Source of the DNA: Corynebacterium tuberculostearicum
Lineage (GTDB): Bacteria > Actinomycetota > Actinomycetes > Mycobacteriales > Mycobacteriaceae
NCBI RefSeq assembly: GCF_016894265.1
Contig: NZ_CP069791.1
Span: 1,798,001-1,862,000 of the forward strand
Reading direction: 5' to 3'
Length of the DNA stretch: 64,000 bases
Shown: in pieces, positions 534 through 7,663 of the stretch
Position numbering within the stretch: position 1 is the first letter of the stretch
Layout: every line of letters starts with the position of its first letter
The notes under the pieces: model-generated
Databases searched by the model: none
Told to the model about the DNA's origin: nothing
The model's input: the letters and a program-made list of their open reading frames with translations, nothing else
Program-made: the position numbers and the translations under genes

Positions 534-1970
<1,437 letters not shown>

Positions 1971-3191
1971 CTACTTCTGCGCGCTGGTGGGGAAGCCACC
2001 GTCGCGATCACGCTGGTTGGAGATCTGGGTGGACAGGCCGTGCAGCTGCACGAAGCCCTTAGCCGCGGTCTGGTCGAAGGTATCGCCAGTGTCATAAGTA
2101 GCCAGGTCGAAGGAATACAGCGACTGGCCGGAACGGCGTCCGGTGACCGTGGCGGTACCGGCATGCATGCTCAGGCGGATATCGCCGGTGACGTTCTCTT
2201 GGGACTCCTCAACGAAGGCATCCAGGGAACGCTTCAGCGGCGAGTGCCAGAGGCCGTCATAGACCTCCTCGGACCAGCGGGCATCGGTCAAGCGCTTGTA
2301 GCGGGCCAACTCACGCTCCACGGTGACATCCTCCAGCGCCTCGTGGGCCTGGATGAGGACCATGGCGCCCGGAGCCTCATAGACCTCACGGGACTTAATG
2401 CCCACCAAGCGGTCCTCCACCATATCCAGACGGCCAATGCCCTGCGCACCAGCGCGGCGGTTGACCTCTTCAATAATCTGCAGCGGGGACATCTTCTGGC
2501 CATCGACTGCCACCGGGATACCCTTCTCAAAGGAGATGATGATTTCATCCGGGGCATTACCCAGGCCCGGGTCCTCGGTATAGGCGTAGAGGTCCTTCGT
2601 TGGCGGGTTCCACAGATCCTCGAGGAATCCGGTCTCTACCGCGCGGCCCCACAGGTTCTGATCGATGGAAAATGGCGAGGAAGCGGACTGCTCAATCGGC
2701 AGGTTGATCTCTTCCGCGAAGGCAATGGCCTTATCGCGGGTCCAGGCATAATCGCGTGCAGGGGCGATAATTTCGAGGGAAGGATCCTGGGCGCGGAAGG
2801 AAACCTCGAAGCGTACTTGGTCATTGCCCTTGCCGGTGCAGCCGTGGGAGACGTGGGTGCCGCCGAATTCCTGCGCGGCCTTTACCAAGTGCTTGGTAAT
2901 GAGGGGGCGGGAAATAGCCGATACCAGCGGGTACTGCTTCATGTACATGCCGTTTGCCTTGATGGTGGGAACGCAGTACTCCTCTGCAAACTCATCCTTG
3001 GCATCGATAACGATGGACTCTACGGCACCGCAGTCAAGTGCACGCTGGCGAACCGATTCCATATCTTCGCCACCCTGACCCAGATCCAGGGAAACGGCGA
3101 CAACGTCACCACCGGTCATTTTTGCCAGGTATGGGATGGCAACGGAAGTATCAAGGCCACCAGAGTAGGCCAAGACTACGCGTGCGGACAT
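1971..3191 (-). CDS. argG: Argininosuccinate synthase
   Basis: Condenses citrulline and aspartate with ATP to argininosuccinate. The N-terminal PP-loop SGGLDTS is at about residues 11-17, and length (406 aa) fits the family. ATG start at 3191 with AAGGAG just upstream. An 81-bp gap separates it from argR. That gap has a hairpin and an AT-rich promoter-like stretch, so argGH may have its own promoter as described for C. glutamicum. Confidence 0.98.
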
Positions 3192-3272: not shown

Positions 3273-3755
3273 CTAAATATTCCGCGTGGTAAGTGTCACT
3301 GCCAGATCTTCCCCCGTGACACCCTCGCGCGCCAAGACGAAGATGGTGTCATCTCCGGCGATGCAACCGATGACATCGTGCAGCCCCACCCTGTCAATAA
3401 AGCTGGCAAGGTACTGGGCCGCACCGGCTGGAGTGCGCAGCATGGCTATATTGCCGGAAGAATCATGGGATACCACCAGCTCATCGAGCATGCGGCGCAG
3501 CTTTTCACGGGGGCCGCCCACTTGGTCTTCAAATTGCTCCAGTTCACCGCCGACCACGTAGTAGGAACGACCACCATCACGTTTTACCTTCTTCGCTCCC
3601 AACTCATCCAAGTCACGGGACAAGGTGGCCTGCGTGATGTCGATGCCGTCTGCGAGAAGAAGCTCGGATAGTTGCACCTGGCTGGTGACGCGATTGCGAT
3701 CCAAAATCTCTAGGATCTTGGCCTGCCGAGCATTGCGGGTGGTCGGGGTGTTCAT
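3273..3755 (-). CDS. argR: Arginine repressor ArgR
   Basis: 160-aa transcriptional repressor. It has an N-terminal winged helix (about residues 1-75, with SQVQLSELL and [12 protein letters not shown] typical of the ArgR DNA-binding domain). The C-terminal arginine-binding/oligomerisation domain (about 90-160) contains [11 protein letters not shown] with the Gly-Asp-Asp ligand motif. ATG at 3755, three bases after argF, so it is an operon member that controls its own transcript. It remains intact even though the upstream biosynthetic genes are lost. Confidence 0.97.
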
Positions 3756-3758
3756 TAC

Positions 3759-4679
3759 TTAGTTGATCTCCTTATTTATTTCGAGCAACCAGACAAGAAG
3801 CGCTTTCTGCGCATGCAGGCGGTTCTCCGCTTCATCAAAGACGAGCGACTGTGGCCCATCAATTACCTCAGCCGTGACCTCATTTCCACGGTACGCCGGC
3901 AAACAATGTAAGAATATTGCATCCTTATGCGCTTTGCTCATTATGGTCGAATCAACCTGATATGGCAGGAATGGCGTACGCCTATCGCGGCCATCATTGT
4001 CCTGCCCCATAGAGATCCACGTATCTGTAATGACTACGTCTGCGCCTGCAACTTCATCCACGTCATCAGTAATGGTGATGTTGCCCCGCTTGCGCGCGCG
4101 GTCGACGAATTCCTGGCGCGGCTGGAATCCCTCGGGCGCGATAATGGAGACGTCCATGCCGGCCGTGGCAAAACCAATCATGTAGGAGTTAGCCATATTA
4201 TTATCGCCATCGCCCAAGTAGACGGCCTTTCTGCCTTTGAGGTCACCCAAATTCTCACGACAGGTCAACAGGTCAGCCAGAATCTGGCAGGGATGCAGGT
4301 CGTCGGAAAGCGCATTGACCAGAGGAACGGTAGTAGTCTCCACCATCTGGAGAAGGTTGTCATGGTCAAAGGTGCGCCACACGATTGCCTCCACGTACCG
4401 CGAAAGCACCGCGGCCGTGTCTTGGTAGGACTCCCCTTTGCCCATCTGAGTCGTAGAAGTATCGACGGTAATGCCCTTGCCGCCCATATTCGCTACTGCG
4501 GTTTCAAAGGAAAAGCGGGTACGCGTAGACGTTTTATCAAAGAGCACCGCCACGGTCTTTGGCCCCTCTAGTGGGCGCTCCGCAAAGGGATCCTTCTTGA
4601 GCTTTTCAGCTAGGTCCAAAATGGTTGCTTGTTCTTGTGGGCTGAGATCGTCGTCAGCCAGAAAGTGTCGCAGGCTCAT
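3759..4679 (-). CDS. argF: Ornithine carbamoyltransferase
   Basis: Makes citrulline from ornithine and carbamoyl phosphate. The carbamoyl-phosphate binding motif STRTR is at about residues 51-55 and the ornithine-loop motif HCLP at about 256-259. Length 306 aa is normal. ATG at 4677-4679 overlaps the stop of the argC'-'argD fusion by four bases (ATGA), the overlap expected of a native argD-argF junction, so argF may depend on translation of the upstream fusion. Confidence 0.98.
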
Positions 4680-5002
4680 GCCAGCTCCTCCATTATCGTC
4701 CGAAGTGTTGTCAGTGCTGTGTCTAGTTCGTTGTGGGAAATAACCAAGGGTGGGGTGAGGCGGAGTACATTCTCACTGGGCGCGTTGAGGATGAGCCCTT
4801 GTGCAAGTCCGTCGCGCACGGCCTGCTTAGCCACTGGTTCCGCTAAAACAATGTCGAGCATCAGGCCGCGGCCGCGTACGCGTTCTACAAGCGGCAATTT
4901 TTCAACCTCTTGCCGCAGATAGTCACCCTTATGAGTAACTTCCGCAAGAAATTCCGCATCCACGTATCCGGTGGCGCCTGCTATTGCTACTGAAATCGTC
5001 AT
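4676..5002 (-). pseudogene. argC'-'argD fusion remnant (deletion of argC-argJ-argB-argD)
   Basis: From the ATG at 5000-5002 the first 14 residues, MTISVAIAGATGYV, are the Rossmann-fold N-terminus of N-acetyl-gamma-glutamyl-phosphate reductase (ArgC). The next 95 residues, from about DAEFLAEV to the end, match the C-terminus of acetylornithine aminotransferase (ArgD), including VRGRGLML and LRLTPPLVI. The join, near 4958-4966, is in frame. The ArgC catalytic domain, all of ArgJ and ArgB, and the ArgD part with its PLP lysine are absent, so neither activity can remain. The frame is also open upstream to 5047, but the ArgC homology begins at 5002. The open frame and the ATGA overlap with argF may keep argFRGH translated. 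An assembly artefact cannot be excluded from one sequence. Confidence 0.88.
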
Positions 5003-5009
5003 AGGGGCG

Positions 5010-5047
5010 ACTATAGCAATAAATACACTCGACCGTATGCTATTCAT
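5010..5047 (-). promoter_or_regulatory. arg operon promoter with ArgR-box-like repeats
   Basis: Leftward, TATAGT (complement of 5010-5015) lies seven bases before the argC' ATG and no Shine-Dalgarno sequence is present, which fits a leaderless transcript. Just upstream are TGAATAGCATAC and GTATTTATTGC, AT-rich half-sites resembling ArgR boxes (consensus TGAAT/ATTCA type). The -35 is not clear. Retention of this control region agrees with argFRGH still being expressed. Confidence 0.5.
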
Positions 5048-5101
5048 GTAAATTGGGGATATTCCCTGGTTAATGCAGCACCAGAAATGAAAAATTGCAT
5101 G

Positions 5102-5149: not shown

Positions 5150-7663
5150 CTATGCGCGCATCTCTGCGCCCAAGCGCTGCTTAGCCAGCTCCGCTGCGGC
5201 CGTGCGGTGCTCGTTGACCTCCTCATCGGTCAACGTGCGATCCGCTGCGCGGAACAGCAGCTGGAAGGCCAAGGACTTCTTGCCCTCCCCCAATTGCTCG
5301 CCACGGAAAATGTCGAAGAGCTCGACGGACTCGATGAGTTCGCCCGCCCCCTCTTCCACGGTGGCGCGCACGCGCTCTGCTGGGACGTCTTCATCCACCA
5401 CGAGCGCAATGTCCTGGTGCAACGCTGGGAAGGAGGACAGTACCGGCGCAGGGAACTTCTCTTCCAATGGCATAGCGGTAACGTCCAGCTCCATAGCGCA
5501 AGTACGCGCCGGCAAGTTCAGCGCTTCCAGAACCTGCGGGTGAAGCTCACCGGCATGGCCCAAGACCACATCGGTGCCAGCCACCTTCACGGCAGCACAC
5601 CGGCCTGGGTGCCAGGGAAGAACGTGCGCGGCCTCCAGCTCGATATCCACACCGGCGGCGCGAGCGACCTGGCGGGCGGATTCGATGGCGTCGGCGTAGC
5701 TATATGCGCGACCCTCGCCCCACGGGCCCTCATGCTCAATATTGCCGGTGGCCACCGTTGCAACGTGCAGCGGCTGCTCAGGAAGGGTATCCAGAAGTTC
5801 GGAAACAACCTGCTCAGAAGGTCGCTGCTCCACGGAAGGCATAGGCGAGGCCTCGGCGCGCTTGAATGCCACCTGCTGCAGCCCATATAGGGCGAGGTCG
5901 CTGCGGCCACGCGCAACATTGCGGCCGATGGCCTCCAGCATGTTCGGAAGCAGCGTCGTGGACAATATGGGCTTGTCGGCCTCAAGCGGGTTCTGGACCT
6001 CTACGGTGCGGCGGCGAGCATCATCCTTGTCCAAGCCCCACACATCAAAGGTGTCGTTCGCCACGAACGGGGCCGGCAATACCTCTGCATAACCGGCATA
6101 GGCCAGTCCGTGACCAATTGCGCGGCGACGCTTCTGCGCTGGCGTTAAGCCGCGACCGCCTGCGGGAGTAGGCAGGACGGTAGGAATGTCTTCCAAGCCC
6201 TCAAGACGTAGGACCTCCTCAATGAGGTCAACATCCATGGAGATATCGGTGCGCCACGTAGCGGGCGTTACCTGCAGCATTTCACCCTCATCGGCAACAG
6301 TGCAGCCGACTTCCTCGAGGCGGGAAATAACAGTCTCACGGGAGTAGTCAACGCCGGCATACTCGCTAGCCTTTGCGGTGCGCAGGGCAATGGGCTCGCG
6401 CTTGGCGACGTCCCCGATAAGCGTCCGGCCTTCCTCAATGGTGCCACCCGCCAGCTGCTGCAAGAGCGCACAGGCGGTGTCCAGAGCGACCTCGACAATC
6501 GCAGGGTCCACGCCGCGCTCGAAGCGACGCGAGGATTCAGAAGACAGCTTATGGCGGCGGGAGGTGCGCGCCACGGTAATCGGATCCCAGATAGCGGATT
6601 CGAAGACCACATCAGTGGTCTCCGCCGAGATTTCGGAGGTAGTACCGCCCATGACACCGGCCAGCGACTGGATGCCGTTGTCATCGCAGATAACCACATC
6701 TTCTGCAGAAAGCTCCCGCTTTACGTGATCCAAGGTCTCAAACTTCTCGCCTTCGTCGGCATTGCGGACAACGAGATTTCCTTGGATAACGTTGGCGTCA
6801 AAGGCATGCATCGGGGCACCCAAAAGCAGCATCACGTAGTTAGTAATGTCCGTGGGCAGGTTTACGCTGCGCTGGCCGCAGAGCATGAGCTCGCGCTCTA
6901 GCCAGAACGGGGTGCGTGCCTGCGGGTCGATGCCGCTGACCTTGCGGAGGCCGAAACGCTGCGCCTTGGTCTCGGGGTTGAGAGTGACGTCGATAAGCGA
7001 GCCCTGCGCCGCTGGAACAGAAGAGGTATCAATGCCAGCAACGGACGGGTCTTCGGCAATATCGGCAAATTCTAGATCGAAAGCGGAGGCAATCTCACGG
7101 CTCAAACCACGCGCGGACAGGGCGTAGCCGCGATCCGGGGTGATGTTGACGTCAAAGTCGGTATCATGCAGCCCAATAACCGGGCGAGCATCCTCGCCTA
7201 CCTTATCGGCGACGTCATCGCCCAAGACGATGATTCCGTTAGCCTGTGCGCCCAAACCGAGCTCAGCGCCGGAGCACAGCATGCCATTAGAGATGTGGTC
7301 GTAAGTCTCGCGCGCCGCAATCTTGAAGTCGCCAGGAAGCTCCGAGCCCGGAAGCGCCACAACGACATAGTCATTCAAACGGAAATTACGAGCACCGCAA
7401 ATGATGCCCTGCAGCTCGCCCGTGCCATTAGCCTGGCCTACATTTACCTGGCAGTAGCGGATGGGCTTTTTGAACTGCGTAAGTTCCTCGATCTCTACCA
7501 CCTGGCCGATGACCAGCGGACCGGTGCTCTCCGGAACGGCAGCGTAGCCCTCGGTTTCAAAACCGACGCGCACGAATCCGGAGTCCATATCGGCAGCGGA
7601 AACGTTCCAACCAGGGTTCTTAGCGCCCAGGATGCGGATGACCCAGTCTTGGGAAATAAGCAT
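5150..7663 (-). CDS. pheT: Phenylalanine--tRNA ligase beta subunit
   Basis: Large subunit of the (alpha-beta)2 PheRS. The 837-aa length and domain order fit. There is an N-terminal EMAP/OB tRNA-binding domain (about 40-150), then B3/B4 with the editing site, a B5 domain, and a C-terminal ferredoxin-fold anticodon-binding domain (last ~95 residues, beginning near SSFPALHQDIALVV). ATG at 7663 follows pheS by 24 bases, so the two are co-transcribed. Confidence 0.98.
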   Translation of the reverse strand: MLISQDWVIRILGAKNPGWNVSAADMDSGFVRVGFETEGYAAVPESTGPLVIGQVVEIEELTQFKKPIRYCQVNVGQANGTGELQGIICGARNFRLNDYVVVALPGSELPGDFKIAARETYDHISNGMLCSGAELGLGAQANGIIVLGDDVADKVGEDARPVIGLHDTDFDVNITPDRGYALSARGLSREIASAFDLEFADIAEDPSVAGIDTSSVPAAQGSLIDVTLNPETKAQRFGLRKVSGIDPQARTPFWLERELMLCGQRSVNLPTDITNYVMLLLGAPMHAFDANVIQGNLVVRNADEGEKFETLDHVKRELSAEDVVICDDNGIQSLAGVMGGTTSEISAETTDVVFESAIWDPITVARTSRRHKLSSESSRRFERGVDPAIVEVALDTACALLQQLAGGTIEEGRTLIGDVAKREPIALRTAKASEYAGVDYSRETVISRLEEVGCTVADEGEMLQVTPATWRTDISMDVDLIEEVLRLEGLEDIPTVLPTPAGGRGLTPAQKRRRAIGHGLAYAGYAEVLPAPFVANDTFDVWGLDKDDARRRTVEVQNPLEADKPILSTTLLPNMLEAIGRNVARGRSDLALYGLQQVAFKRAEASPMPSVEQRPSEQVVSELLDTLPEQPLHVATVATGNIEHEGPWGEGRAYSYADAIESARQVARAAGVDIELEAAHVLPWHPGRCAAVKVAGTDVVLGHAGELHPQVLEALNLPARTCAMELDVTAMPLEEKFPAPVLSSFPALHQDIALVVDEDVPAERVRATVEEGAGELIESVELFDIFRGEQLGEGKKSLAFQLLFRAADRTLTDEEVNEHRTAAAELAKQRLGAEMRA

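Follow-up and report, generated by a model that had tools for sequence, protein, structure and literature searches.

A shared argC–argD deletion in Corynebacterium tuberculostearicum predicts ornithine auxotrophy and has probably moved by recombination

Introduction

ArgF, ArgG and ArgH lead from ornithine or citrulline to arginine. Corynebacterium glutamicum carries an argCJBDFRGH operon, in which single knock-outs result in arginine auxotrophs (PMC3827942). Truncated arginine pathways have been described in gut bacteria, including a variant (A1) that has ArgG and ArgH only and for which salvage of intermediates was proposed (PMC9026213). Closer to the case presented here, axillary C. tuberculostearicum isolates were reported without the ornithine module M00028 (PMC12542688), that is, the same organism group with the same predicted gap; the accessible part of that study presents a KEGG module table and names no deletion, junction, polymorphism or recombination. 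For the nasal Corynebacterium pangenome, arginine modules were reported as complete in most genomes (PMC11651106), and a model of strain DSM 44922 lists arginine and ornithine exchange (PMC12893189), while the available sections of a study on the C. tuberculostearicum species complex (PMC9927478) do not treat arginine. On the host side, citrulline ranks among the main free amino acids in the stratum corneum (PMC6882842), and arginase produces ornithine there (PMC12471417).

Here, we analyzed a 64,000-nt stretch of a C. tuberculostearicum genome (contig NZ_CP069791.1; the window). As in C. glutamicum, argF, argR, argG and argH follow pheT, but argC and argD are stubs, and argJ and argB are gone. 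The locus resembles the gut variant A1 in that the lower half of the pathway is kept and the upper half lost; it differs in that ArgF is also kept, a single deletion is visible as the cause, and intact sisters exist. A literature search, to which subscription journals were mostly closed, found no published account of the deletion or its spread. The ornithine module gap is already in print; the allele, its apparent movement and the repeated parallels are new.

Results

An in-frame fusion in place of the upper arginine genes

The following features of the window, all on the minus strand, are referred to below.

5150..7663, minus strand: pheT, conserved upstream neighbour (ORF list and comparison of loci)
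5010..5015, minus strand: TATAGT, putative -10 element 7 nt before the ATG, visible in five genomes
4676..5047, minus strand: argC–argD fusion ORF, 123 aa from the first ATG; homologues with identical junction
4676..5002, minus strand: part of the fusion that is likely translated, 108 aa, from the presumed start, the ArgC start codon of intact relatives
4962..4963, minus strand: deletion junction; argC codons 1–13 and one further nt, joined to argD at about residue 297
4685..4691, minus strand: GGAGGAG, putative Shine-Dalgarno-like site of argF within the fusion ORF, read from the sequence
3759..4679, minus strand: argF, ornithine carbamoyltransferase, intact (open; passes NCBIfam equivalog TIGR00658)
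3273..3755, minus strand: argR, arginine repressor, intact (open; passes TIGR01529)
1971..3191, minus strand: argG, argininosuccinate synthase, intact (open; passes TIGR00032)
534..1964, minus strand: argH, argininosuccinate lyase, intact (open; passes TIGR00838)

According to the original prediction, one ORF joins the start of argC to the end of argD after a loss of about 4 kb (the rest of argC, argJ, argB and most of argD). Both points were confirmed. The ORF consists of the first 13 ArgC codons followed in frame by the last ~95 ArgD codons, its translation reading ...MTISVAIAGATGYV-DAEFLAEV..., with an ArgC-like start and an ArgD-like end. Compared to the intact sister C. tuberculostearicum FDAARGOS_993 (L003), which has the order pheT-argC-argJ-argB-argD-argF-argR-argG-argH, the locus lacks 4026 nt, a length divisible by 3; the gap begins at argC codon 14 and reaches about codon 297 of argD. 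On the plus strand, the junction separates position 4963 on the argC side from position 4962 on the argD side, and the deletion ends have just 2 nt (CG) in common in L003 coordinates. The intact arrangement is indeed the usual one in corynebacteria, as had been assumed: among 80 Corynebacterium loci collected via argF, argC, argJ, argB and argD lie upstream of argF in 72, and three of the eight deviating loci (L031, L037, L076) are contig ends. The downstream part of the prediction likewise stood, with argF, argR, argG and argH all open and above their NCBIfam equivalog cut-offs, and with the fusion stop and the argF start sharing ATGA (4676–4679).

Since argC of intact relatives begins at the ATG equivalent to 5002, the likely product of the fusion is 108 aa long, counted from this position. 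Pfam detected the C-terminus of Aminotran_3 in the ORF and nothing else, and the best NCBIfam match, acetylornithine transaminase, reached 83.6 bits against a cut-off of 457. The full PLP-binding domain of ArgD is absent, with profile positions 286–395 of 399 remaining, and we take the catalytic lysine of ArgD to sit upstream of this stretch. The fusion retains neither this domain nor the ArgC active site. Its product would be no enzyme, and at most a translated leader bringing ribosomes to argF.

An arg promoter upstream of the fusion had also been proposed. This was weakly borne out: TATAGT is visible in five genomes, but a strict sigma-70 scan upstream of the fusion found no promoter. If TATAGT acts as a -10 element, it could yield a leaderless transcript, a type that accounts for 33% of mRNAs in C. 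glutamicum (PMC3890552). Among the sisters, no other part of the locus varies as much as the pheT–argC interval (4993–5075, minus strand), with up to 22 differences per 100 nt.

The genome lacks a recognizable route to ornithine and keeps the route from it

The genome that contains the window (G000) measures 2.43 Mb and is 99.98% complete. No intact copy of argC, argJ, argB or argD was found elsewhere in it. ArgJ gave no match, with the C. glutamicum control positive in the same search, and for ArgC and ArgB nothing exceeded the cut-off (best 28.9 and 28.2 bits); these weak matches are also present in the intact genome of FDAARGOS_993 (G005), beside its true genes. The class-III aminotransferases of the genome are the fusion tail and HemL, which leaves neither an ArgD nor a RocD route to ornithine, and a second ornithine-forming aminotransferase was not found in the genome. 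Because argJ, argB, argC and such an aminotransferase are all missing, the cell is predicted to be unable to make ornithine and to require an external supply of ornithine, citrulline or arginine, likely from its host or from neighbouring cells; the requirement put forward originally is thus the natural prediction from the gene content. An unrecognized route that makes ornithine inside the cell appears improbable: family-based searches can miss unrelated enzymes, yet HemL is the one class-III aminotransferase besides the tail, and the genome has neither an arginase nor an arginine deiminase.

The lower half is complete, with argF, argR, argG and argH intact and carB, for carbamoyl phosphate, present and intact as well. 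Over the six sister loci, these four genes are under purifying selection (omega 0.05–0.16, 0.00–0.08, 0.01–0.03 and 0.02–0.06, respectively), although part of this signal may date from before the deletion; trees and omega values were computed on six to 14 loci. A catabolic function of ArgF was considered and rejected. The genome has no arginine deiminase (PF02274), and its ArgB search gave no carbamate-kinase-like match, whereas two deiminase-bearing genomes each gave one; the arginine deiminase pathway is therefore not available for ArgF to be part of. Arginase was rejected in the same way, as the sole arginase-family protein is HutG (formimidoylglutamase), whose gene adjoins a histidine ammonia-lyase-like ORF.

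Our main reading, to which we assign a probability of about 0.7, is that the operon lost argJ and argB together with most of argC and argD in one ~4-kb deletion, and that the cell likely cannot make ornithine and would obtain arginine only from imported ornithine or citrulline via ArgF, ArgG and ArgH. Transcription would begin at the ATG at 5002 or slightly ahead of it, with TATAGT seven bases upstream of this codon. The short fusion would then be translated, and ribosomes would either pass through the ATGA overlap to argF or initiate at GGAGGAG. With plentiful arginine, ArgR would continue to repress the operon; under arginine shortage, ArgF would carbamoylate imported ornithine, and ArgG and ArgH would turn citrulline into arginine. 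Since ArgF is kept, the cell could draw on ornithine in addition to citrulline.

The fusion is shared and polymorphic among sister genomes

The full-length fusion occurs in 3 of 242 Corynebacterium genomes (G000, G004 and G052), and among the loci collected via argF the junction is found in C. tuberculostearicum SK141 (L001), which apparently corresponds to G052. When compared directly, the junctions of G004 and SK141 are identical to that of the window. Three more genomes carry the ArgD tail at 88–91% identity, two of them (G005, G239) with an intact locus and the third (G108) with another deletion. The six sister genomes are accordingly divided into three with the fusion, one with a different, out-of-frame deletion and two that are intact. 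Among public protein clusters, 10 of 13 contain the junction (354 member sequences in sum, the window's own cluster included; P0010, P0011 and P0013 were excluded from the count). For comparison, the 13 ArgJ clusters with at least 94% identity to L003 ArgJ sum to at least 276 members among the best 120 of 977 matches, which were scored from at least 7999 candidates. As a rough hint, given that cluster members are not strains, both intact and fused alleles are common. One of the fused clusters, P0012 (80 aa), shows a second in-frame loss of 28 codons of the ArgD tail.

Another explanation is that the assembly collapsed here, or that a single strain acquired the deletion in the laboratory. We found nothing in favour of this explanation, and the recurrence of an identical junction in three separate assemblies and ten public protein clusters makes it negligibly probable.

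A second deletion and the question of frame

The sister genome G108 (locus L083) lacks 2563 nt, a gap that opens at codon 9 of argJ and closes within argD. Its argC is intact, and relative to the argJ start the deletion is out of frame. The stretch L083:8116-8843 carries this genome's own deletion, with argC left upstream as an apparently useless enzyme. Two protein clusters, P0134 (15 members, 100%) and P0149 (27 members, 93%), start just beyond the G108 junction and probably represent this type of deletion on two backgrounds. Within one close group, the arg stretch has thus been lost twice, once in frame and once out of frame. Two further clusters, P0153 (249 aa) and P0168 (254 aa), are truncated ArgD proteins that start upstream of the G108 junction; at 80–85% identity they are like other species of the complex and are possibly more broken argD alleles.

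The preserved frame of the fusion had originally been taken to suggest selection for argFRGH expression. This argument proved weak. A random deletion preserves the frame one time in three, and the loss of the same stretch both in and out of frame removes most of the argument's weight. Moreover, the fused cluster P0008 ends in another frame and looks frameshifted, and argF has its own Shine-Dalgarno-like GGAGGAG (4691–4685).

A related explanation is that the fusion ORF itself is selected, its translation as a leader or small protein serving to maintain both translation and transcription of argF. Its frame is preserved in three genomes, further losses in two fused clusters removed whole codons (one in P0004, 28 in P0012), and the TATAGT located 7 nt ahead of the ATG points to a leaderless start. 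In the 91-codon tail, changes between the window and the other fused alleles L081 (G004) and L082 (G052) are mostly silent (6 replacement to 11 silent and 5 to 9; neutral chance 0.0008 and 0.0026), so the tail has evolved like intact ArgD, for which the comparison of the intact L002 and L003 gave 8 replacement and 11 silent changes. Either this divergence predates the arrival of the deletion in that background, or the fusion ORF is constrained. L081 and L082 show the opposite pattern when compared to intact L003 (5 and 6 replacement to 2 silent tail changes), and the window has another residue in place of a glycine found in all nine other sequences of the comparison. Against a selected ORF stand the chance of one in three, the out-of-frame G108 deletion, the apparent frameshift in P0008, and the ribosome site of argF; in addition, the search finds open frames only and is hence biased towards preserved ones. 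Taken together, we regard selection on the fusion ORF as rather unlikely.

Conflicting histories of the deletion and its flanks

Across the six sister loci, the flanking genes are 93–98% identical and their gene trees conflict. In the joined flank tree, the window groups with G108 (0.991), away from the other two fused genomes, and the cluster P0003 combines the fusion junction with a tail identical to that of G108 in 91 of 91 residues. L081 and L082 do not differ from -376 to +204 about the junction. This 581-nt run is the longest in 10504 columns with 367 differences (96.5% overall identity), followed by one of 460 nt, and it covers the intergenic region that is elsewhere the most variable part. 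The chance of such a run is near 2e-8 under a uniform rate, though rates are not uniform, and the stretch may be a quiet region by chance.

With only 2 nt in common at the deletion ends, a repeated origin of the identical junction is unlikely, and the identity of L081 and L082 over 581 nt, when they are 96.5% alike nearby, indicates that the deletion probably moved by recombination. The simplest reading of these alignments is therefore one deletion event, after which homologous recombination probably carried the allele from lineage to lineage. For the window allele itself, the run across the junction shared with L081 and L082 is 47 nt and not exceptional (only run lengths were used here, as the shorter window piece adds ~540 end-gap columns), and the allele differs from the two other fused alleles about as much as species do. 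Since it is not unusually close to them, vertical descent fits the window as well as transfer does.

Loss of the upper half elsewhere in the genus

Ten of 221 drawn Corynebacterium genomes are without ArgJ (G000, G004, G052, G108, G016, G047, G099, G204, G143 and G118), one of which, G118, is just 53% complete. G016, G047, G099 and G204 have pheT followed by argF, argR, argG and argH, and their pheT–argF gaps of 95 to about 530 nt gave no match to argCJBD. The presence of argFRGH in these four further genomes, whose ArgF is 60–71% identical to the reference, indicates that the lower half persists for long without the upper half. G099 also carries an arginine deiminase. G143 lacks both ArgJ and the usual ArgF and has an arginine deiminase; at G143:C1:1921500-1940200, the deiminase is grouped with a 44% ArgF-like gene and a kinase-like gene.

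A tree of ArgF, ArgR and ArgG placed five changes, at least four of them forced and three outside the C. tuberculostearicum rows. It leaves out L076 (a contig end) and one of L056 and G047, taken as one genome; a first count that included these (10 rows, seven changes, at least five forced) was set aside. As a single clade of G099, G047 and G204 was not rejected (p 0.238), we claim at least two losses outside the group rather than three. Loss of the upper half with argFRGH kept has thus arisen at least twice elsewhere in the genus.

A candidate independent loss in three NML strains (L034, L038, L047) was rejected, because argB lies elsewhere in all three genomes, which points to relocation. 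Their sole gene between pheT and argF (L034:6749-7864, likewise in L038 and L047) is a divergent ArgJ-like gene, 36–38% identical to L003 ArgJ and below NCBIfam cut-offs. The arg cluster of these strains seems to have been relocated, with the odd ArgJ left behind or gained.

These comparisons bear on a competing explanation, in which imported arginine suffices and argFRGH is a leftover before decay. Arginine import is common, and the exchange between L081 and L082 appears recent, which may have left little time for decay in these genomes. However, the three fused genomes and G108 all have an intact argFRGH, and in the four genomes with clean argCJBD loss, with their ArgF at 60–71% identity, it outlasts that loss; G143 shows the other path, with this ArgF lost and a deiminase carried. 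On balance, we consider a mere leftover unlikely, if somewhat less so than selection on the fusion ORF, and favour import and use of ornithine or citrulline.

Discussion

The original picture of a single loss was correct as regards the ~4-kb deletion, but it missed the shared, polymorphic state of the deletion, its probable recombination and the similar independent losses. In conclusion, what we describe is a real, shared and naturally occurring deletion that, judged from gene content, most likely makes its carrier an ornithine auxotroph. More tentatively, and with the odds somewhat against it, the allele may be an advantageous loss of function of one origin that passes between sister human-associated Corynebacterium species by homologous recombination and converges with independent deletions; the upper half of the pathway would then be a cost because the host provides citrulline and ornithine.

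With this deletion, a predicted auxotrophy in a group that is common on human skin has a named cause, dated by its junction, and the intact sisters can act as controls. Pathway statements for "C. tuberculostearicum" are strain-dependent, which should be kept in mind next to the complete arginine modules reported for most nasal genomes (PMC11651106). As skin offers both citrulline and ornithine, the predicted dependence on host metabolites is directly testable. For the biology of the genus, the locus represents a clean case in which loss of half a pathway seems to have spread by recombination and not by descent alone.
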